From contig CAKZUE010000054.1 in the NCBI GenBank assembly GCA_937920635.1, positions 62,001-126,000 on the forward strand: a DNA stretch of 64,000 nt. Direction: 5' to 3'. The notes beneath the pieces were generated by a model. It ran no database searches. It saw only the letters and a program-made list of their open reading frames with translations, and was not told the origin of the DNA. The translations under genes were made by a program, and so were the position numbers. The stretch is from an uncultured Bryobacteraceae bacterium. GTDB taxonomy: Bacteria; Acidobacteriota; Terriglobia; Bryobacterales; Bryobacteraceae. Below are positions 49,987 through 61,709 of the stretch, piece by piece (within the stretch, counting starts at the first letter, position 1; each line of letters begins with the position of its first letter).

Positions 49987-50526
49987 ATGCCTGAGACGCA
50001 CAAAACGACGGAAAAAGCCCCAGCCATTTCAGAAAAACACTGTTGTTTCCGCCTTTCGGTGCACCCTTCGCCAATTCACCGTTGGGGCGTATTCGCCGAA
50101 GAATTTATTCCAAAAGGCCGGAAAATCATCGAGTACACGGGGGAGAAAATCAGCCGGCGCGAGACGGCGCGGCGCGCGCGGCGCCGCTACAATTACCTGT
50201 TCACGCTGGACAGCTACTGGACGATCGACGGCAGCGCGGGGGGCAGCGGCGCGGAGTTCATCAACCACTGCTGCGAGCCCAACTGCGTGGCGCGGATCGT
50301 CAAGGGGCACATTCTCTATTTCGCCGCCCGCGACATCCAGCCGGGAGAGGAGCTGACGGTGGATTACCGCTTCGACCCCGACGTCGAGGAAGTGAAATGC
50401 CGGTGCGGCGCGGCCAACTGCCGGGGCACGATCAATCTGAAAAGGGAAAGCAGGAAAGGGGCTAAGCGCCGGAGGGGAAAGGCAGCGGGCGCGGGCGCGC
50501 CGCACGGGGCGGAAACGGCAGCCTGA
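49987..50526 (+). CDS. SET-domain protein lysine methyltransferase
   Basis: 179 residues. A SET core and post-SET region: VHPSPIHRWGVFAEEFIPKG (start of SET), IIEYTGEKI, FINHCCEPNC (SAM and active-site pseudoknot), YFAARDIQPGEELTVDY (catalytic Tyr) and the zinc-binding post-SET cysteines CRCGAANCRGTI. A basic tail (KRESRKGAKRRRGKAAG) may bind nucleic acid. The arrangement resembles eukaryotic histone methyltransferases; bacterial versions are found sporadically and the target here is unknown. ATG 49987 is 286 nt after mdh. Confidence 0.88.
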   Translation: MPETHKTTEKAPAISEKHCCFRLSVHPSPIHRWGVFAEEFIPKGRKIIEYTGEKISRRETARRARRRYNYLFTLDSYWTIDGSAGGSGAEFINHCCEPNCVARIVKGHILYFAARDIQPGEELTVDYRFDPDVEEVKCRCGAANCRGTINLKRESRKGAKRRRGKAAGAGAPHGAETAA

Positions 50527-50839: not shown

Positions 50840-52048
50840 CTACCTTCGGAAGAGGGACAGGATGCCGGAAAGTCCGCCGCTGCCGGGCTTGGCCTGCGGC
50901 TCGCTGTCTTCCATGGACTTGCCTGCCAGTTTCTCGGCCACCTGGAGGAATCCCCTGCCCGCAGGGGAATTCACAGGGACGGGTTTGCCTTCCACCACGG
51001 CGTGCTGGACGTCTTCATAGGCGCTGGGCACGACATGGAACACCTCCAGGTGGAGGGCCGTCTCGACGAGTTCTTTCTGCAGTCCGATCTCCTTGCGGAA
51101 GCGGTTGATGACGAGGCGGATTTTGGCCGGATCCACGCGGTGCTTTTCAAAATTGGCGAGAGCGCGCTGCGTGGCGTGCAGCGATGGCAGTTCGTTGGTG
51201 GTGACCAGAACGAGTTCGTCGCACAGGTTGGCGAGGCTCAGGTTCCAGGGGCCGTAAGGGCCTCCCGTATCCACGAGAACGACGCCGTAGATGGAGCGCA
51301 TGAACTGAATCAGCCCGGCAGGATTGGTGTCGCCGTTGATGCCATGGACCGGCTGCTCGGGGGCGGCGAGCACGTCGACGCCCGACTTGGCAGAGACGAG
51401 TCCTTTCCAGACGTCCTCGTCGAGTTCGCCGGCGCGGGACAGCGCGTCGAGAAAAGAATAGCTCTGCTTGACCTTGGCCTGAAAAGCCACGGTTCCGGCA
51501 AGAAGATCAAGGTCGGCCAGGGCGACCTTGCCTTGGGTCAGCTTGCGCCAGTGCCAGGCCACATTGCAGGCCAAAGTGGAAGCGCCGCAGGCGCCCTTGA
51601 CGGGCATGAAGCAGACGACCTTGGCCTCCGAGCCGCCCCTGGCCCGGTGGACGGAGGCGATCCGCTCCATGACCGTGCAGAACTGGTCTTCCGTGAGCGG
51701 AGCGCAGAGGAATTCAGTGGCTCCCTGGCGGAGGGTTTTCAGGATCAGCTCAGGCTGGTTGGCGGCGTGAACGGCGACGACGGGGAGCTTGGGGTTCAGC
51801 AGAGCAAGGTCGCTCAAGAGGGCCAGAGCCCACTCTTCGCGTGAAGTGGCATCCACGAAGCACAGGCTGACGCCGTGGCCGGTGAGGATCTCTTCCAGGA
51901 CAGCCCGGGTCGGATACTCCTCCAGAGCCATGACCGGAGAAAACGGCAGCAACTCCGCCAGCAATGATTCCATGCCGGCCTTCAGGCCGGGATCGGGGCA
52001 AATGAGAAGGACTTTCCATTGACCGAAATTGCGGCGTGTTCCCGACAT
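50840..52048 (-). CDS. cpaE: CpaE-like pilus assembly ATPase
   Basis: 402 residues. The N-terminal ~130 residues are a receiver-like domain (KVLLICPDPGLKAGMESLL; CFVDATS) that is probably not phosphorylated, and the rest is a MinD/ParA ATPase with a deviant Walker A, PVKGACGASTLACNVA (Lys151 and Lys-Gly-Ala-x-Gly-Ala-Ser-Thr), ALADLDLLAGTVAF (switch) and VLVDTGGPYG (Walker B). CpaE/TadZ places the Tad/Flp pilus at the cell pole. No other tad genes are present in the window. ATG 52048 is the first good start; it is divergent from a LuxR-type regulator. Confidence 0.85.
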   Translation of the reverse strand: MSGTRRNFGQWKVLLICPDPGLKAGMESLLAELLPFSPVMALEEYPTRAVLEEILTGHGVSLCFVDATSREEWALALLSDLALLNPKLPVVAVHAANQPELILKTLRQGATEFLCAPLTEDQFCTVMERIASVHRARGGSEAKVVCFMPVKGACGASTLACNVAWHWRKLTQGKVALADLDLLAGTVAFQAKVKQSYSFLDALSRAGELDEDVWKGLVSAKSGVDVLAAPEQPVHGINGDTNPAGLIQFMRSIYGVVLVDTGGPYGPWNLSLANLCDELVLVTTNELPSLHATQRALANFEKHRVDPAKIRLVINRFRKEIGLQKELVETALHLEVFHVVPSAYEDVQHAVVEGKPVPVNSPAGRGFLQVAEKLAGKSMEDSEPQAKPGSGGLSGILSLFRR

Positions 52049-52210
52049 GTCCAGAACCGGGGCGGGTTGAACCCTTCCAGCCCGTCTAGTAGCGCTATCG
52101 ACTTTCTGCACGAAAAACTTGAGAGTCTTGTCCCGCTCCACCGACTTTTTCTTGGGACCGGTCAGCCCCGCCCCCGGGGGGCTGCCACCCAGATCAACGG
52201 GACAGAGAAC

Positions 52211-52882
52211 ATGGACTCACACAGCACACCAGCACAGGCTCCGATCCAGGTCGGGATCTGCGAAACGCAACCGGCCACGGCGGAGGGACTCCGATCCCTT
52301 CTGGAACGCAGCGCAGGACTCCATTGCGCCTGGATCGTGCCGCACCTGCCAGTGGTACTTCAGTTGGCCCGGCAATCGCCGCCCGGCGTCATTCTGCTGG
52401 ACAAACACTTCGGGCAGCAGCTCGTGATGAGGACCGTGGAGGAGCTGCTGCGCCACGCCTCGGTCCCAGGGGTCGTGGTGTGGGGCACGGCGATCGGCGA
52501 AGCGGAGGCGCTGCGCTACCTTCAGGCGGGGGTGCGCGGGCTGATGAAGAAGAGCGCCAGTCTCGCCACGATCGAGCGCTGCCTGGCGACGGTTGGGCAA
52601 GGAGGCATGTGGGTGGAGGACGCCGTGGCGGCGCCGGCGGCGGGAGAGACACGGGCCACGATGCCGCAATTGACGCCGCGCGAGTCCCAGGTGCTCGAGC
52701 TGGTGCGCCAGGGCATGCGGAACCGGGAGATCGCCACGGCGCTCGGCATCCGGCCAGGAACGGTGAAGATCCATCTGCGGCACATTTTTGAGAAGACGGG
52801 GATCCACGGGCGGTTCTCGCTGGCGCTGAACCTGATGGCGGCGCGGCCGGCGGCGCAGTCCAAACACGCCGAGGTAGCCTGA
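52211..52882 (+). CDS. LuxR-type response regulator with atypical receiver
   Basis: 223 residues. A receiver domain (13-130) has a possible phosphorylation Asp in VILLDKHFG (Asp64) and a Lys in LMKKSAS, but the usual acidic pair at the first strand is reduced to CETQ, so Mg-dependent phosphorylation may be weak. The C-terminal LuxR helix-turn-helix is complete: LTPRESQVLELVRQGM, REIATALGIRPGTVKIHLRH and IFEKTGI (about 155-201). ATG 52211 is chosen because the longer frame runs into the divergent cpaE start. No histidine kinase gene is near. Confidence 0.87.
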   Translation: MDSHSTPAQAPIQVGICETQPATAEGLRSLLERSAGLHCAWIVPHLPVVLQLARQSPPGVILLDKHFGQQLVMRTVEELLRHASVPGVVVWGTAIGEAEALRYLQAGVRGLMKKSASLATIERCLATVGQGGMWVEDAVAAPAAGETRATMPQLTPRESQVLELVRQGMRNREIATALGIRPGTVKIHLRHIFEKTGIHGRFSLALNLMAARPAAQSKHAEVA

Positions 52883-53143: not shown

Positions 53144-54862
53144 GTGCGAAAGGGCTCTATCAGCCGAATCGGCGCGGCGCTGCTGCTGCTGGCCGCGGCA
53201 ATCCCGCCGGGCAGCCGGGCGTCCAACGGCCAGGCGGGCGCCGCGCCCGCGCTGGCAGACATCCTGGCCGCGGAGTTGGACCGCAATTTCCGCATTTTGA
53301 AGGAGAAAGCGGAACCGAAGCCGTACTACATCTGCTATCGCGTAGCGGAATCAGAGGGCGGCGCCATGGCGGCCACGCTGGGCAGCCTGGCCCAGCGCGG
53401 CGTCAACCACCGGCGCAACCTTGACGTTACCGTGCGGGTAGGCTCGCCAAAGCTGGACAATTTCCACCTCCTCAAGGGGGAGAGGCCCCGCCTCACGGCC
53501 TCCGCCCCGCTGCCGGTGGAAGACGGGGCGGCGGCGATCCGGCGGATCGCCTGGCGGGAGACGGACCGGGCGTGGCGGGCGGCGGCGCAGCGCCTGATGC
53601 AGGTGGAATCAGCCGTCAAGATGCGCACCGAAACGGCCGAGATGGCCGATCTGCCGGACTTTTCCGAGCAGCCCCCGGCAGTGGAATTCCAGGACGTGCC
53701 GCGGCAGAAATTCCCGGCCGAAGAATGGGCCGCGAAATTGAGAAAATGGTCGTCGATTTTCAGTGAATATCCCATGCTGGTAACCTCGAATATCAGCCTG
53801 CAATGGCAGCGGGAGACACGGACTTTCATCAGCAGCGAGGGGAGCCGGACGCACCACGGCCGGTATTTTTACCGGCTTTCGATCAACGCCACGGCAAAGG
53901 GATATGACGGGAACGACTTGAACCTGTTCGAGAGCTTCGACGCCGACGACGCCGCGCGGCTGCCCCGGGACGGCGCGGTGGAGCAGGCGGTGCGGAGAGT
54001 GGGCGCGCAACTGACGGCGCTGATGCGCGCGCGGCCGGCCGAGCCGTATGTGGGGCCGGCGATCCTGTCCGGCACGGCGGCGGGCGTGTTCTTTCACGAG
54101 ATTTTCGGCCACCGGATTGAAGGCCACCGGCTGCGGGACGAGACCGAAGGGCATACCTTCGCCGGCTCCGTCGGCAAGCCGGTGCTGCCGGAATTTCTGA
54201 GCGTGATTTCCGACCCGACGCTGCGGCGCGCGGCCGGGCAGGACCTGAACGGGTGGTACGCCTACGATGACGAGGGCGTGCCGGCGCAGCGGGTAGTGGT
54301 GGTGGAGAAGGGCGTCCTGCGGAATTTCCTGATGTCGCGCCTGCCGGTGCCGGGCTTTGCCCGGACCAACGGGCACGGGCGCGCGCAGCCGGGGATCGAG
54401 CCGCTGTCGAGGCAATCGAACCTGCTGGTGGAGTCGTCGAAGCGGGCGTCCAGAGAGGAATTGCGGCGGCTGCTCCAGGCCGAGATCCGGCGGCAGAACA
54501 AGCCCTACGGGCTGTATTTCGAAAAGGTGACCGGAGGGTTCACGCGGACGCGGCGCGGCGGGCTCCAGGCATTCACCGTGATTCCGCTGCTGGTGTACCG
54601 CGTCTATGCCGACGGTCGTCCCGACGAACTGATCCGGGGCGCCGACATTGTGGGCACGCCGCTGGCGAGTTTCTCCAAGATTCTGGCCACGGGAGACCAG
54701 CCGGAAGTGTTCAACGGATATTGCGGGGCCGAATCGGGCAACGTGCCAGTGGCAGTGGTGGCGCCGGCGCTGCTGGTGGAAGAGATCGAAATCCAGAGGC
54801 AGCCGGAGTCGAAAGACATTCCGCCGATCCTGCCGCGCCCGGCGATGGAGGTGCAGCAGTGA
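53144..54862 (+). CDS. Exported TldD-like metallopeptidase (catalytic partner)
   Basis: 572 residues. It starts with a signal peptide (ISRIGAALLLLAAAIPPGSRAS), whereas TldD of E. coli is cytoplasmic. The TldD/PmbA fold is shown by the zinc motif FFHEIFGHRIEGH (His318, Glu319, His323) and the C-terminal YCGAESGNVPVAVVAPALLV, whose Cys would be the third metal ligand. The N-terminal half is longer than in TldD. TldD works with TldE in peptide maturation or CcdA degradation. GTG 53144; the stop overlaps the next start as GTGA, so the two proteins are made together. Confidence 0.85.
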   Translation: MRKGSISRIGAALLLLAAAIPPGSRASNGQAGAAPALADILAAELDRNFRILKEKAEPKPYYICYRVAESEGGAMAATLGSLAQRGVNHRRNLDVTVRVGSPKLDNFHLLKGERPRLTASAPLPVEDGAAAIRRIAWRETDRAWRAAAQRLMQVESAVKMRTETAEMADLPDFSEQPPAVEFQDVPRQKFPAEEWAAKLRKWSSIFSEYPMLVTSNISLQWQRETRTFISSEGSRTHHGRYFYRLSINATAKGYDGNDLNLFESFDADDAARLPRDGAVEQAVRRVGAQLTALMRARPAEPYVGPAILSGTAAGVFFHEIFGHRIEGHRLRDETEGHTFAGSVGKPVLPEFLSVISDPTLRRAAGQDLNGWYAYDDEGVPAQRVVVVEKGVLRNFLMSRLPVPGFARTNGHGRAQPGIEPLSRQSNLLVESSKRASREELRRLLQAEIRRQNKPYGLYFEKVTGGFTRTRRGGLQAFTVIPLLVYRVYADGRPDELIRGADIVGTPLASFSKILATGDQPEVFNGYCGAESGNVPVAVVAPALLVEEIEIQRQPESKDIPPILPRPAMEVQQ

Positions 54863-56637
54863 AGCGCGCGTTGCTGGTTTGGATGCTGGCTGCGGCAGCG
54901 GCGGCGCAGCCGCAGACGCCGGATGCGGCCGTGGCCGCAAAGATCAACGCGGCGCTGAACAGCGACCCGGTGCTTCGGGCGATGGCGCAAGAGCTGGGCC
55001 GGGCGAAAAACCTGCGGGCGCTGGGGGAGGCTGTCTATTTCGGCGAGGTCTCCGCCGACGACGCGGAGAGCTTTTCGGTCTCGGCCACGCTCGGCTCGAT
55101 CTTCGCGCCGCAGCAGGCCCAACTGCGGCCGGTGCGGCCGCTGCTGCGGGTGGGGCAGGCGAACTTCGACAATACGGGCTCGATTTATTCGGACTACTTC
55201 GAAGGCACGCGGTTCGACGCAGGCATGCTGCCGCTGGACAACCAGGTTCCGGCCCTGCGCCACGCGCTGTGGCTGGCCTTCGACCGCGCCTACAAGACGG
55301 CCTACGGGGCGCTGGGGCGGAAAGCGGCGGCGTTGCGGGGCGTGACGCAGAGCGAGGTGCTGCCGGATTTCTGGCCGTCGACGCCGGTGGTGGTGATCGA
55401 AACGCCGTCGCGGGTGAAAATCGACGAAGCCGCCTGGACGCAGCGCGTCAGGCAGCTTTCGGCGCTCTTTTCGGCCTATCCGGCGGTGACCTCGTCGGGC
55501 GTGGATTTCCAGGTGTCGCAAGGCACATCGTATTACCTGAACACCGAGGGGACGCTGGCGCGGGTGAATGACCGGATCGGGTACCTTCGCGTGCGCGCCG
55601 CAGCGCAGGCGCCCGACGGGATGATCCTGTACGACGGCGATTCGGTGGAGGCGCTGGAGCCGCAGCGGATGCCCGGGGAGGCGGAACTGCGGCAGACGGT
55701 GGAGGCGGTGGCGAAGAATGTCGCCGCGCTGGTGGCGGCGCCGCCGGGCGGGAGTTACTCGGGGCCGGTGCTGCTGGAGGGGATCGCCGCGGCGCAGGCG
55801 TTCGGAGAAGTGTTCGGTTCCAACCTGGGAGTGACGCGCCGTCCGGTGGCGGAGCCCGGGCGGCAAGTGCCGGTGCTGGGCAGCGAACTCGAAGGGCGTC
55901 TGGGATTGCGGGTGTTGCCGGAGTGGATGGACCTGATCGACGACCCCGGGCAACAGGAATTCGCCGGACGTCCGCTGCTGGGCTTCTACCTGGTGGATCT
56001 GGACGGCGTGCGGCCGCAGCGGCTGGCCGTGGTGGAGAAGGGCGTGTTGAAGACGCTGCTGGCCACGCGCCAACCGGTGAAGGGGATGAACGGGCCGAGC
56101 GGGCGCTCGCGGCTGCCGGGCGCGTTCGGGCTGAAGACGCCGAGGATCTCCAACCTGTTTGTGCAGGCCAGTGTCACGGAGAGCGAGGGGGCGCTGAGGA
56201 AGCGGCTGCTGGATCTGGCGGCGCAGGCAGGGCGCGAGTACGCGATCGTGATCCGCAAGCTGGACTTCCCCTCGTTCGGCTCGGTGGATGACCTGCGGCA
56301 ACTGGCGGCGCAAGCGGGGCGCAGCGGCGGCGGGAGCCGCCCGGCTCCGCTTCCGGTGCTGGTGTACCGGGTGTACCGGGACGGGAGGGAGGAGCTGGTG
56401 CGGGGGATGCGGCTGCGCTCGCTTGGGACGCGGCAATTCCGCGACATTCTGGCGGCAGGCGACCGGCCGTACCAGTTTGATTATCTGGACAACGGCGCGC
56501 CGCTGGCGATCACGGGGGCTGGCAATTACATCGTGGGGTGCTCGGTGGTATCGCCCTCGCTGCTGTTTGAGGAGCTGGATCTGGAGCCGGTGAGCGCCGA
56601 CCTGCCCAAGCCTCCCATCGTGCCGCCGCCTCAGTGA
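54859..56637 (+). CDS. Exported TldD/TldE-like protein lacking metal ligands
   Basis: 592 residues. A signal peptide (MKRALLVWMLAAAAAAQ) precedes the same fold as the upstream protein, but the zinc motif is replaced by AFGEVFGSN (Gly316 and Ser321 for the two His; Glu317 kept) and the C-terminal Cys-Gly motif is absent (TGAGNYIVGCSVVSPSLL instead). That is the pattern of TldE/PmbA, the non-catalytic partner in the TldD-TldE heterodimer. I infer a periplasmic heterodimer. It is coupled to the upstream gene by a 4-nt overlap and followed after 48 nt by the LptFG fusion. Confidence 0.83.
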   Translation: MKRALLVWMLAAAAAAQPQTPDAAVAAKINAALNSDPVLRAMAQELGRAKNLRALGEAVYFGEVSADDAESFSVSATLGSIFAPQQAQLRPVRPLLRVGQANFDNTGSIYSDYFEGTRFDAGMLPLDNQVPALRHALWLAFDRAYKTAYGALGRKAAALRGVTQSEVLPDFWPSTPVVVIETPSRVKIDEAAWTQRVRQLSALFSAYPAVTSSGVDFQVSQGTSYYLNTEGTLARVNDRIGYLRVRAAAQAPDGMILYDGDSVEALEPQRMPGEAELRQTVEAVAKNVAALVAAPPGGSYSGPVLLEGIAAAQAFGEVFGSNLGVTRRPVAEPGRQVPVLGSELEGRLGLRVLPEWMDLIDDPGQQEFAGRPLLGFYLVDLDGVRPQRLAVVEKGVLKTLLATRQPVKGMNGPSGRSRLPGAFGLKTPRISNLFVQASVTESEGALRKRLLDLAAQAGREYAIVIRKLDFPSFGSVDDLRQLAAQAGRSGGGSRPAPLPVLVYRVYRDGREELVRGMRLRSLGTRQFRDILAAGDRPYQFDYLDNGAPLAITGAGNYIVGCSVVSPSLLFEELDLEPVSADLPKPPIVPPPQ

Positions 56638-56685: not shown

Positions 56686-59019
56686 GTGGGACTGCTGACG
56701 CGCGCCATATTCGCCGAGATCGCCGCCAGCGCGCTGCTTGGGACGGCGCTTTTCGTCTTCGTGCTGTTCCTGCAACGGGCGGCGCAACTGTTTTCGATTC
56801 TGGTGACCACCTCGGCGGCGGCAGGCACGGTGGGCTATCTGTTCCTCCTGCTGCTGCCATCGACGATGCCGCTGACGGTTCCGCTGGGCGTGCTGGCCGG
56901 CATCCTGGTCACGCTGAGCCGGATGTCGGGCGACGGCGAGGTGACGGCGCTGCGGGCGGCGGGGGTGCCCGCATGGCGGCTGCTGGCGCCGGTGGCGGGT
57001 TTTTCCCTGCTGGCGGCTTCCGCAGCCGGCTTCTGCTCGCTGCATTTGACGCCGCTGAGCAACCGCGAGCTGGTGCGGGTGATCAACAAGCTGGGCGCGG
57101 CGCAACTGTCGTCGGAGATCCAGCCCCGGGTGTTTGAAGAGAGCTTCCCCAACAAAGTGCTCTACGTCGGGGATCTGATCCCCGGCACGCCCGTAGTGTG
57201 GCGCAGGATCTTCATCGCGGACCTGACACCGGCGTCCGAGCGGCAGAGCGCGGCGCCGCGCAAGGGAGATTGGCCGGTGGTCACGCTGGCGGCGGAAGCG
57301 GTGGTGCTGCCGGACCCGGCGCGGAACCGGCTCCAGCTTTCGCTGAAGCAGGGGGCGACCTACGAGGCGGCGCCGGACCCGGCCGAGTACCACCGCATTC
57401 AGTTCCCCCGCGGCGAACAGGCGCTCGAGGCGCGTCCGCGCACGGAGGTGCGCGCCAAGAATTACACGGCGACGCCGACGCTCGATCTGCTGCCGGAATT
57501 GCAGCGCAGCGTGGAGGCGCGGATCGAATTCCACCAGCGGATGGCGCTGCCGATGGCGTGCCTGCTGCTGGGGCTGGCGGCATTTCCGCTGGGCGTGGCG
57601 GCGCGCCGGGGCGGCAAGAGCGGGGCGTTTGTGATCACGGTGGGCTTCGCGCTGTTCTACTACACGGCGCTGGTAAGCCTGATCGGGCTGGCGCGGGAGG
57701 GGCGGATTGCCGCCGAACTGGCTGCATGGCTGCCGGACGCGGCGTTTGCGCTGCTGGCCGTGGCGCTGCTCCTGCGGCTGGAGAAGCCCGGCGACAGGGA
57801 CTGGCTCGCGGGCGCGCGGGAGCGCGCTTCCGGACTGCTGGAGCGGATCCGCTCGCTGCTGCGGTTTCCGGCGCCGGCGCCGGGCGTGATGAGCCTGAGG
57901 ACGGGCGGAACAAGAGTCTTTTTCCTGCCGCAGGTGATCGATTTCTACGTCATTTCCAGCTTCTTTTTCTATTTTCTGGTTCTTTTATTCACGTTTGTCA
58001 TTCTTACCGAGGTATTCAATTTCTTCGAGCTGCTGGGAGATGTCTTCCGCAATCAGATCCCAATCGCTGACCTGTTCCGGTACCTGTTCTTCCTGGCGCC
58101 CAAGCTGATCTACGACGCCGCGCCGCTGAGCGTGCTGGTGGCCACGCTGGTGTCGTTCGGGATTCTTTCCAAGCACAACGAGATCACCGCCATGAAGGCG
58201 TGCGGCGTGAGCCTGCACCGCTTGAGCCTGCCGGTGCTGGCGGCGGGCGCGGCTCTCAGCGTGGGGCTGTTCGCTTTCGATCACTACGTCGCCACCGGCG
58301 CCAACGTAATCCAGGAACGGTTGCGCAACCAGATCAAGGGGCGCCCGGCGCAGACGTACATGCGCCCGCAAAGTCCATGGATTTTCGGGCGGGGGCCGCG
58401 GATTTATTACTACCGGTATCTGAACGAAGCGGAGGGCGTGCTGGGCGGCGTGAGCGTGTACGAATTCTCGGAAACAGGATTCGATCTGGCGCGCCATATC
58501 TACGCCGAACGGGCTCGCTGGGAACCGGGTTTGCGCACGTGGGTTTTTCAGAACGGCTGGATCCGCGACCTGGGGTCTAAAGAGGAACGGTTCCGCAAAT
58601 TCGAGGGGGAGGCGGCGACGTTTCCGGAGATTGACGAGCCGCCCTCGTGGTTCGTCAAGGAGGTGAAGACATACAAGCAGATGACGTTCCAGCAGCTGGG
58701 AGACTATATCGCCGAGATGCGCCAATCGGGGTTCAACACGATTCCGCTCCAGGTGCAGTATCACAAGAAATTCTCGGCGCCGCTGTTCGCGCTGGTGATG
58801 GCGCTGTTGAGCGTGCCGTTTGCGTTTCTGACCGGCACGCGGGGCGCGCTCACCGGAGTGGGCGTGAGCCTGGGCATCGCGGTGGCGTACTTCGCGCTGA
58901 ATTATCTGTTCGAGCAGCTCGGCAACGCGGGGCAGCTTCCTCCGCACCTGGCGGCGTGGTCGCCGAACGCGCTGTTCGCCCTGACCGGGCTGTACCTGAT
59001 GTCGAGAATGCGGACGTGA
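56686..59019 (+). CDS. lptFG: LptF-LptG fusion, LPS export permease
   Basis: 777 residues, about twice a single YjgP/YjgQ permease. The first half (1-365) has six membrane segments around a periplasmic beta domain (GLLTRAIFAEIAASALLGTALF; MALPMACLLLGLAAFPLGVA). A ~40-residue basic linker follows, then a second complete permease (about 405-777: VIDFYVISSFFFYFLVLLF; KKFSAPLFALVMALLSVPFAFLTGT). LptF and LptG are normally separate and form a heterodimer with the LptB ATPase to extract lipopolysaccharide. Fusing them fixes one-to-one stoichiometry. GTG 56686; it overlaps the next gene by 1 nt. lptB is not in the window. Confidence 0.9.
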   Translation: MGLLTRAIFAEIAASALLGTALFVFVLFLQRAAQLFSILVTTSAAAGTVGYLFLLLLPSTMPLTVPLGVLAGILVTLSRMSGDGEVTALRAAGVPAWRLLAPVAGFSLLAASAAGFCSLHLTPLSNRELVRVINKLGAAQLSSEIQPRVFEESFPNKVLYVGDLIPGTPVVWRRIFIADLTPASERQSAAPRKGDWPVVTLAAEAVVLPDPARNRLQLSLKQGATYEAAPDPAEYHRIQFPRGEQALEARPRTEVRAKNYTATPTLDLLPELQRSVEARIEFHQRMALPMACLLLGLAAFPLGVAARRGGKSGAFVITVGFALFYYTALVSLIGLAREGRIAAELAAWLPDAAFALLAVALLLRLEKPGDRDWLAGARERASGLLERIRSLLRFPAPAPGVMSLRTGGTRVFFLPQVIDFYVISSFFFYFLVLLFTFVILTEVFNFFELLGDVFRNQIPIADLFRYLFFLAPKLIYDAAPLSVLVATLVSFGILSKHNEITAMKACGVSLHRLSLPVLAAGAALSVGLFAFDHYVATGANVIQERLRNQIKGRPAQTYMRPQSPWIFGRGPRIYYYRYLNEAEGVLGGVSVYEFSETGFDLARHIYAERARWEPGLRTWVFQNGWIRDLGSKEERFRKFEGEAATFPEIDEPPSWFVKEVKTYKQMTFQQLGDYIAEMRQSGFNTIPLQVQYHKKFSAPLFALVMALLSVPFAFLTGTRGALTGVGVSLGIAVAYFALNYLFEQLGNAGQLPPHLAAWSPNALFALTGLYLMSRMRT

Positions 59020-59819: not shown

Positions 59820-61709
59820 ATGAGATGGGCATCTCTGTTGGCGGCAAGCTTCCTGCTGGCGGCGCCCGCCGCGGCGCAGGCGCAGAAGCAGTTCCGCACG
59901 GTGATCTTCGGCCGCTATTCGGACTCGATTCAGAGTTTCGAAGCATTCGCGCAGCGCGCCAGACAATCCGGCGCCACGCACATCGTGATCACGGCTGAGG
60001 ACCTGCCGTGGGCGTTGTGGATGCTCGATACGCCGGGCGATCCGTATCCCGCGTGGGCGATGTCAAACATCGGCATTTTCAAGGCAGCCACGCCGGATGC
60101 GCTGAAGCCCTATCTGCCGCAGGACTATGCGGACCGCGTGATGGGCATCCTCAAACAGCGCTGCGAGGTGCTGCGGAAGCTGGGGCTGAAGGCGGCGTAC
60201 ACGACGTTCGAGCCGCAGATTCTGCCGGAAGCGGTATACCGCGACCATCCACTGTGGCGCGGTCCGCAGGTGGATCATCCTCTGCGCTCCCGCGTACCGC
60301 GGTTTGCGCCCAATATCGACAACCCGGAGGTGCTGGCGCTGTACCGGGAGTCCATGCGGAAGTTCTGCACCCTGTGTCCGGAAGTGGAGGTGGTCTCGCT
60401 GCACACGAACGATTCCGGCTCCGGCATGAGCTGGAGTCCCGGGCTGTATCAGGGGCCCAACGGCAGCGCGCTCACACGCGGCCGGAAGATGTATGAACGC
60501 TACCGGGAGTTCTTCGGCGCGCTGCGGCAGGGAGCGCAGGACGCGCGGCAGGGACCGCTGGAGATCGACGCGGAGTGGGTGCGGGAGTCCGTGCCGGAGC
60601 TGTTCGCCCAACGGCTCGAGGCGGGCATGGCGATTGCAAACATCGAGGGACCGAAGGCGGCGCCGTACAAGGCGGTGGTGGGATTTTTACTCGATTATTT
60701 CTATCCCTTTTATCCGGCGCTGGGAATTCCGCTGCCGGTGCGGTATCTGGAGGAACTCGAAAAAGCCTCCCGGAGCAGCGCGCCGCGGCTGTTTTATCTG
60801 ATCGGCGACCGGTACAACACGGACATCTATTTCGACATCTATGACCGCTTTTGGAAAAGCCCCACGTCGGATGACGTTTCCCGAATGCAACTGCTGCGTT
60901 CGATCGCCGCGGCCCGTGTCGGGGAAGCTGGCGCCGGCGCTCTGGTAAGCGCGTGGAACGCCATTCACCGCGCCGGGCGTGATGTCGATATTCTCAATTT
61001 TGGCGGCACGCTGTTCTACATTGGGGGCGTTCATCAGCGCTGGATCACGCGGCCGTTCGTGCCGTTTCCCGAGGAGCTTCAGGAAGCAGAGCGCAGCTAT
61101 TACCGCCGGTTCCTGTTTCAGGCGCGCGGCGAGGACCGGGCGCGCGATCTGGGCGACATCCAGGGAACGCGGCAGTACCAGGGCCTCGGGGGCATGGCCG
61201 TCTCCGGGCAACTGCTGGTGCGGATGAAGGCCGACATCGCAGAGGCGCGGGAGATCATCGGCAGGATCGCCTCTTTGCCCGCAGCAGCCTCGCGCAAGGC
61301 GGAACTCGATCTGCTCGACAGGCGCCTCCAAGTGTTCGACATCCTCATCGACAACTGCCGCGACGGGCTGGAGTATCAGTACCTGCTGGACTTCATGAAG
61401 GGCGGACGGCTGCGCCGCCCGGTGGAATTCCAGGAGCACCTGACCGACATCACGGAATGGCGCCAGATCAAGGACATCGCCCGGCGCGAGATGGACAACA
61501 GCATCGTGCTGGCTGAGATGCTCGAGTCGACGAAGGACGTGCTGCTGGATCTGGCGCGGACGAAGGAAGAAGAGAACATCCGCGTGCTGGGGCCGGACCT
61601 GGCTGCCCAGCTCAGGCTGCGCGCGCAAATCATGGCCAAGTATTGGGAGGATTACGAGCGGCTTTTCGACGAGGAGAAGCCTCTGCCCGCGGCGGTGGAG
61701 AGGCGCTGA
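59820..61709 (+). CDS. Secreted protein of unknown family, TIM-barrel-like
   Basis: 629 residues with a clean signal peptide (MRWASLLAASFLLAAPAAAQA) and a strong ribosome site GAGGAGG 8 nt before ATG 59820. Residues ~25-350 alternate strands and helices with acidic and aromatic residues at strand ends (HIVITAEDLPWALW; VVSLHTNDSGSGMSWSPGLY; PLEIDAEWV; NIEGPKAAPY), reminiscent of a glycoside-hydrolase barrel. The C-terminal ~250 residues are helical with coiled-coil character (LVRMKADIAEAREIIGRIA). I cannot name the family or the catalytic residues. The stop codon is 1 nt from the stop of the convergent gene. Confidence 0.65.
   Translation: MRWASLLAASFLLAAPAAAQAQKQFRTVIFGRYSDSIQSFEAFAQRARQSGATHIVITAEDLPWALWMLDTPGDPYPAWAMSNIGIFKAATPDALKPYLPQDYADRVMGILKQRCEVLRKLGLKAAYTTFEPQILPEAVYRDHPLWRGPQVDHPLRSRVPRFAPNIDNPEVLALYRESMRKFCTLCPEVEVVSLHTNDSGSGMSWSPGLYQGPNGSALTRGRKMYERYREFFGALRQGAQDARQGPLEIDAEWVRESVPELFAQRLEAGMAIANIEGPKAAPYKAVVGFLLDYFYPFYPALGIPLPVRYLEELEKASRSSAPRLFYLIGDRYNTDIYFDIYDRFWKSPTSDDVSRMQLLRSIAAARVGEAGAGALVSAWNAIHRAGRDVDILNFGGTLFYIGGVHQRWITRPFVPFPEELQEAERSYYRRFLFQARGEDRARDLGDIQGTRQYQGLGGMAVSGQLLVRMKADIAEAREIIGRIASLPAAASRKAELDLLDRRLQVFDILIDNCRDGLEYQYLLDFMKGGRLRRPVEFQEHLTDITEWRQIKDIARREMDNSIVLAEMLESTKDVLLDLARTKEEENIRVLGPDLAAQLRLRAQIMAKYWEDYERLFDEEKPLPAAVERR

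Follow-up and report, generated by a model that had tools for sequence, protein, structure and literature searches.

TldD/E proteins are widespread among bacteria and archaea, and to our knowledge the normal job of these enzymes outside the peptide antibiotics is unclear. In the closest described system, TldD/TldE of E. coli (TldE is PmbA; MEROPS M103 / U62; PF01523-PF19290-PF19289; PDB 5nj5), both subunits are needed and the active site is enclosed. The metal sits in the active subunit, and with the dead subunit in place a hollow shell is complete; its entrance is narrow, so that the enzyme trims unfolded peptides, starting at their N-terminus (PMC5810440). No description of an exported TldD/E was found in the literature searched, in agreement with an earlier sequence-only reading of the DNA studied here, which called a periplasmic system not well described; a 2022 review of TldD/TldE (10.1016/j.micres.2022.127186) may mention exported members.

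Here we describe two neighbouring genes, xD and xE (Table 1), from a 64,000-nucleotide stretch of DNA (the window) of an uncultured Bryobacteraceae bacterium. Based on alignments, predicted structures and a survey of relatives, we suggest that their products probably form an exported heterodimeric metallopeptidase, TldD/TldE-like and located outside the cytoplasm, for which we infer the heterodimer, the metal binding, the activity and the substrate. The pair resembles E. coli TldD/TldE in fold, in the HExxxH and distant Cys ligands of xD, and in the logic of pairing these with a partner that has lost them all. Unlike the E. coli proteins, xD and xE carry predicted signal sequences, are ~100 residues longer each, have no recognised PF01523 domain and show about 20% and 15% identity; their genes are overlapping neighbours, and the inactive subunit would come from a separate duplication. 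If this reading is true, the TldD/E enzyme type moves into the cell envelope.

Table 1. Features of the xD/xE locus, in window coordinates.
Feature	Position	Strand	Details and basis
LuxR-type regulator upstream of xD	52019..52882	+	PF00196, 57.5 bits; same place in Bryobacterales relatives L064, L077, L033 and L117
xD, putative exported TldD-like metallopeptidase subunit	53144..54862	+	572 aa, GTG start; PF19289, phmmer, AlphaFold, 76-row alignment
Predicted Sec-type signal sequence of xD, residues 1-26	53144..53221	+	predicted cut between SRA and SN; heuristic Sec scan
HEIFGH motif, xD residues 318-323	54095..54112	+	alignment with E. coli TldD
Cys527 of xD, invariant	54722..54724	+	aligned with TldD metal ligand Cys454
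xE, putative exported TldE-like partner without metal ligands	54859..56637	+	592 aa, GTG start; PF19289, AlphaFold, 79-row alignment
Predicted Sec-type signal sequence of xE (VKRALLVWMLAAA)	54859..54897	+	predicted cut within AAAAAAQ stretch; heuristic Sec scan
lptF-lptG fused in one ORF	56686..59019	+	777 aa, 48 nt after xE; TIGR04407 at residues 4-363, TIGR04408 at residues 418-774; synteny

The 4-nt overlap noted from the sequence (xD ends at 54862, xE starts at 54859) recurs well beyond the window. We found xD and xE adjacent on one strand at 102 loci, and at 80 of these they overlap, by exactly 4 nt in 61 and by 1 nt in 17, so that the pairing is not due to chance. A scan of GTDB genomes returned 80 loci, all labelled Acidobacteriota or Acidobacteria-class, and ~30 further loci were found besides; a profile search of 396 genomes of the phylum detected the system in 65, about 60 of them with both genes. 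The distribution was followed in this one phylum, Acidobacteriota, and beyond it in plasmids, where queries with xE, with xD and with two divergent relatives of the latter gave ordinary TldD-level matches or none.

The first gene had been singled out for HEIFGH and a Cys ligand region, and both are present and aligned with the ligands of TldD. Residues His262, Glu263, His267 and Cys454 of the E. coli protein align with H318, E319, H323 and C527 of xD, invariant in 76/76 aligned xD orthologues, and the C-terminal NGYCGAESGNVPV of xD is the counterpart of the Cys454 region in this alignment. A complete TldD metal-ligand set in xD, HExxxH plus a distant Cys, is supported by these comparisons. The domain PF19289 (PmbA_TldD_3rd) scores 98.3 bits in xD against a Pfam cut-off of 22, and phmmer matches xD to the TldD chains of PDB 5nj5 (7.8e-19 for chain A). 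Like the leaderless archaeal and bacterial TldD and TldE paralogues (NF040952, PRK10735, PRK11040), xD scores on TldD models, at 82.7 and 62.7 bits; unlike them, it stays far below the curated NCBIfam cut-offs of 635 and 513 and falls in another clade.

In the second gene GEVFGS is present and no Cys matches the TldD ligand, as had been stated. None of the TldD metal ligands is conserved across 79 aligned xE orthologues, in which the residues at the xD ligand columns are mostly A/G/S/N/D, E/Q/R, R/P/D/S, and M/L/I/V or a gap. PF19289 reaches 44.1 bits in xE (cut-off 22). A PDB sequence search with xE alone gave no match, and a profile of xE orthologues gave weak matches to TldE and TldD.

AlphaFold models of the two proteins have pLDDT values of 92.0 (xD) and 91.1 (xE). 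The best match of the xD model is the catalytic TldD chain 5nj5_C (VIA Z 38.1, 3.2 A, 448 residues), with the TldE/PmbA chains clearly below it at Z 26.5-30.3; its metal ligands align with those of TldD in this high-confidence prediction, and HEIFGH sits in helix 310-325. The xE model matches the TldD chain (Z 26.1, 440 aligned) and the TldE/PmbA chains (Z 24.3-24.5) about equally. Unrelated VIA rows stay under Z 5.6 for both models. The predicted structures support a TldD/TldE two-domain fold that spans mature xD and mature xE.

Signal peptides had been proposed for both genes, and they hold up across ~100 orthologous pairs in a home-made Sec test that judges n-region charge, h-region and cleavage site. 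Among xE sequences 98 of 104 passed the test, and among those of xD 96 of 110; the N-terminus is missing in 7 of the 14 xD failures. Several failures of either protein are truncated, or are leader-like but miss the charge rule. With the same start-codon freedom, 4 of ~39 leaderless TldD/TldE genes of the same phylum pass. Leader-like N-termini are found in ~95% of complete xD and xE orthologues, in unrelated sequence, and both proteins are predicted to be non-cytoplasmic, unlike canonical TldD/TldE. Other TldD-like pairs of the carrier genomes were considered as further exported examples and rejected, with no leader at the start of any inspected pair.

The sequence-only reading saw in the locus the active/inactive logic of TldD-TldE repeated outside the cytoplasm. 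That logic is borne out by ligands kept in xD and lost in xE and by leader-like N-termini on both; descent from TldE is not part of it, and the label "TldE-like" for xE is apt for fold and role alone. Our trees join xD and xE in one clade, opposite cytoplasmic TldD and TldE. The alternative that groups xD with cytoplasmic TldD and xE with cytoplasmic TldE has a p-AU of 1.5e-79, and of 2.5e-6 for the C-terminal domain only, with the catalytic columns dropped and two more paralogue classes added. Some long branches meet in the C-terminal-domain tree, in which the xD+xE join itself is starred (99). xD and xE also share the invariant residues E44, R98, G100, D105 and W137; the cytoplasmic proteins have no counterpart of D105 and have other residues in place of E44, R98 and W137. 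The joint clade, the AU tests and the shared residues, most of them absent from the cytoplasmic proteins, together argue for an independent duplication. The candidate explanation of xE as an exported TldE was rejected by the full-length and the C-terminal-only trees, with catalytic columns removed and other TldD-like paralogues added, and on this evidence xE originated by duplication within the exported clade.

On the unrooted topology the metal site switched state at least two times, whatever the position of the root. To gain the site twice in identical form is much less probable than to lose it twice, which argues for two independent losses, and the active/inactive pairing of the exported clade appears to have an evolutionary origin distinct from that of the cytoplasmic pairing. 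On balance we favour a broader reading. In it, Acidobacteriota possess an exported TldD/TldE system with an evolutionary history of its own: a His2-Cys metallopeptidase and its pseudo-peptidase partner would go back to a duplication that took place within the envelope compartment, and in some lineages, the window's genus among them, they would have persisted after the cytoplasmic system disappeared. The division into active and dead subunits would thus have evolved at least two times in one fold. The enzyme type itself is known; new are a dead subunit that originated independently and a genus from which the cytoplasmic counterpart has been lost. Such an origin raises the question of why the fold keeps needing a dead partner, and a shared constraint (shell closing or substrate gating) could be tested by comparing exported and cytoplasmic pairs.

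Three genomes of one Acidobacteriota family, f26, encode lone xD-like proteins (L060:7268-8920, L212:4985-6658, L213:5502-7235). By sequence these are the closest to xD, and they are catalytically complete, with HExxxH, as HE(A)(V/L)GH, and CGAESG motifs; unlike xD, they have neither a leader nor an xE partner. They possibly represent the state before the duplication, or a lineage that lost xE. We dropped them as a clear pre-duplication relic, as an xD+xE clade and an xD+f26 clade fit about equally in the placement tree.

In the window's genome xD and xE are the sole PF19289 proteins, and PF01523 has no match anywhere in it, xD and xE included. All 5 sampled genomes of the genus, two of them single-contig, have the exported pair only and no cytoplasmic TldD/E, and several carriers outside the genus (G143, G024, G050, G088) likewise have just two matches. 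A cytoplasmic pair is retained alongside the exported one in most of the remaining carriers, and the two systems are therefore not interchangeable in general. A genus with the exported pair only would allow its function to be tested without cytoplasmic overlap. In L196, L199 and L203 (Bryobacteraceae and relatives) we also observed a further leaderless TldD/TldE-like pair, with HESVGH or HESIGH, besides the ordinary cytoplasmic pair.

In our proposal, the overlapping genes would be translated together, Sec would carry xD and xE across the inner membrane, and folding would take place in the periplasm. One metal ion would be held by xD through His318, His323 and Cys527, and Glu319 would serve as general base. 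A Cys metal ligand is unusual in the oxidising periplasm, and its invariance is a second question raised by xD. Following the E. coli precedent (PMC5810440), xE may close a hollow shell around the active site of xD, so that only unfolded peptides could enter and be trimmed. Peptidase activity is not assured, because proteins of the TldD fold can act as N-deacetylases, to judge by the title of a review from 2022 that PMC10885120 cites. As to origin, a gene of a single exported lineage would have duplicated and one of the copies then lost its metal site, a course of events separate from that in cytoplasmic TldD/TldE. The role of the pair is probably the general turnover or trimming of cell-envelope peptides.

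The genomic setting bears on this role. In Bryobacterales the gene order is a LuxR-type regulator, xD, xE and a fused lptF-lptG, and the observation that the pair lies beside an LPS export gene is correct for the window. Surveyed across relatives, the co-occurrence is partial: the order xD-xE-lptFG was found in 63 of the 98 loci with room for it, usually with an xE-lptF gap of 0-25 nt, and all 63 belong to Bryobacterales, where they make up nearly all loci, none lying outside that lineage. The 35 other loci with room, mostly of Acidobacteriaceae and other families, have xD-xE without lptFG. Within Bryobacterales, lptFG does not follow xE in L098 and L117, and two genomes of the genus to which the window belongs, G258 and G259, have it elsewhere. 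Confined to one lineage and broken within this genus, lptFG does not define the system, and a lineage-wide link to LPS export was rejected on these counts. Acidobacteriaceae commonly have a gene for an M48 membrane protease divergently upstream of the pair, and family f20 has planctomycete-type cytochrome genes downstream; as neighbourhoods differ between families, they give no consistent hint of a substrate. The only stable unit across them is xD-xE itself. The close spacing in Bryobacterales would suit a system dedicated to LPS export, which would act at the LptFG permease by processing or removing stalled peptides or some component of Lpt. The many loci without lptFG make this improbable; in Bryobacterales, expression of the pair would be tied to this permease, and the link may go no further.

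A role in maturing a peptide product, exported or of ribosomal origin, like that of TldD/E for microcin B17, has precedent in several peptide natural product pathways, for which enzymes of this type are often encoded off-cluster (PMC10885120). We consider it quite improbable here, since no precursor or modifying-enzyme genes were recognised beside any inspected locus and the wide, conserved distribution resembles housekeeping, not a variable product pathway. Least probable of all, with a very small chance, is that the leader-like N-termini mislead and that the pair is a cytoplasmic TldD/E replacing the usual one: the window's genus has no other, the leaders were judged by a home-made test and the start codons are GTG, but leaders of unrelated sequence in ~95% of complete orthologues, rare in TldD/E controls, and the cytoplasmic pairs kept by most other carriers speak against it. 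Somewhat less remote, though still unlikely, is that xD and xE are both exported and do not form one enzyme, xD being a homodimer and xE either inhibiting it or forming a homodimer of its own. Such an arrangement would fit the lone f26 relatives, the homodimeric active TldD of Sulfolobus solfataricus (discussed in PMC5810440) and G051, in which xD and xE lie on different contigs. Against it stand the near-obligate co-occurrence and overlapping genes of the exported members, and the E. coli enzyme, which is active only as a heterodimer (PMC5810440). We therefore retain the exported heterodimer as the probable reading.

Several further observations concern the surroundings of the pair. All 5 genomes of the genus have lptF and lptG fused head to tail in a single ORF, and so do 51 of the 53 Bryobacterales loci with room, where it is >650 aa long. 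In the closest named relative (72% identity), a transposase-like ORF (L117:12904-13956) follows xE in the place of lptFG. Downstream in the window, a 629-aa ORF with a leader-like N-terminus (59820-61709) has no Pfam or NCBIfam match. The cytoplasmic tldD of E. coli (L144:4584-10001) adjoins yhdP, an envelope lipid transport gene. Upstream, the window encodes a small bacterial SET-domain protein (49987-50526; PF00856, 93 bits), and its N-terminal sequence is also found in the same region of L064 and L077.
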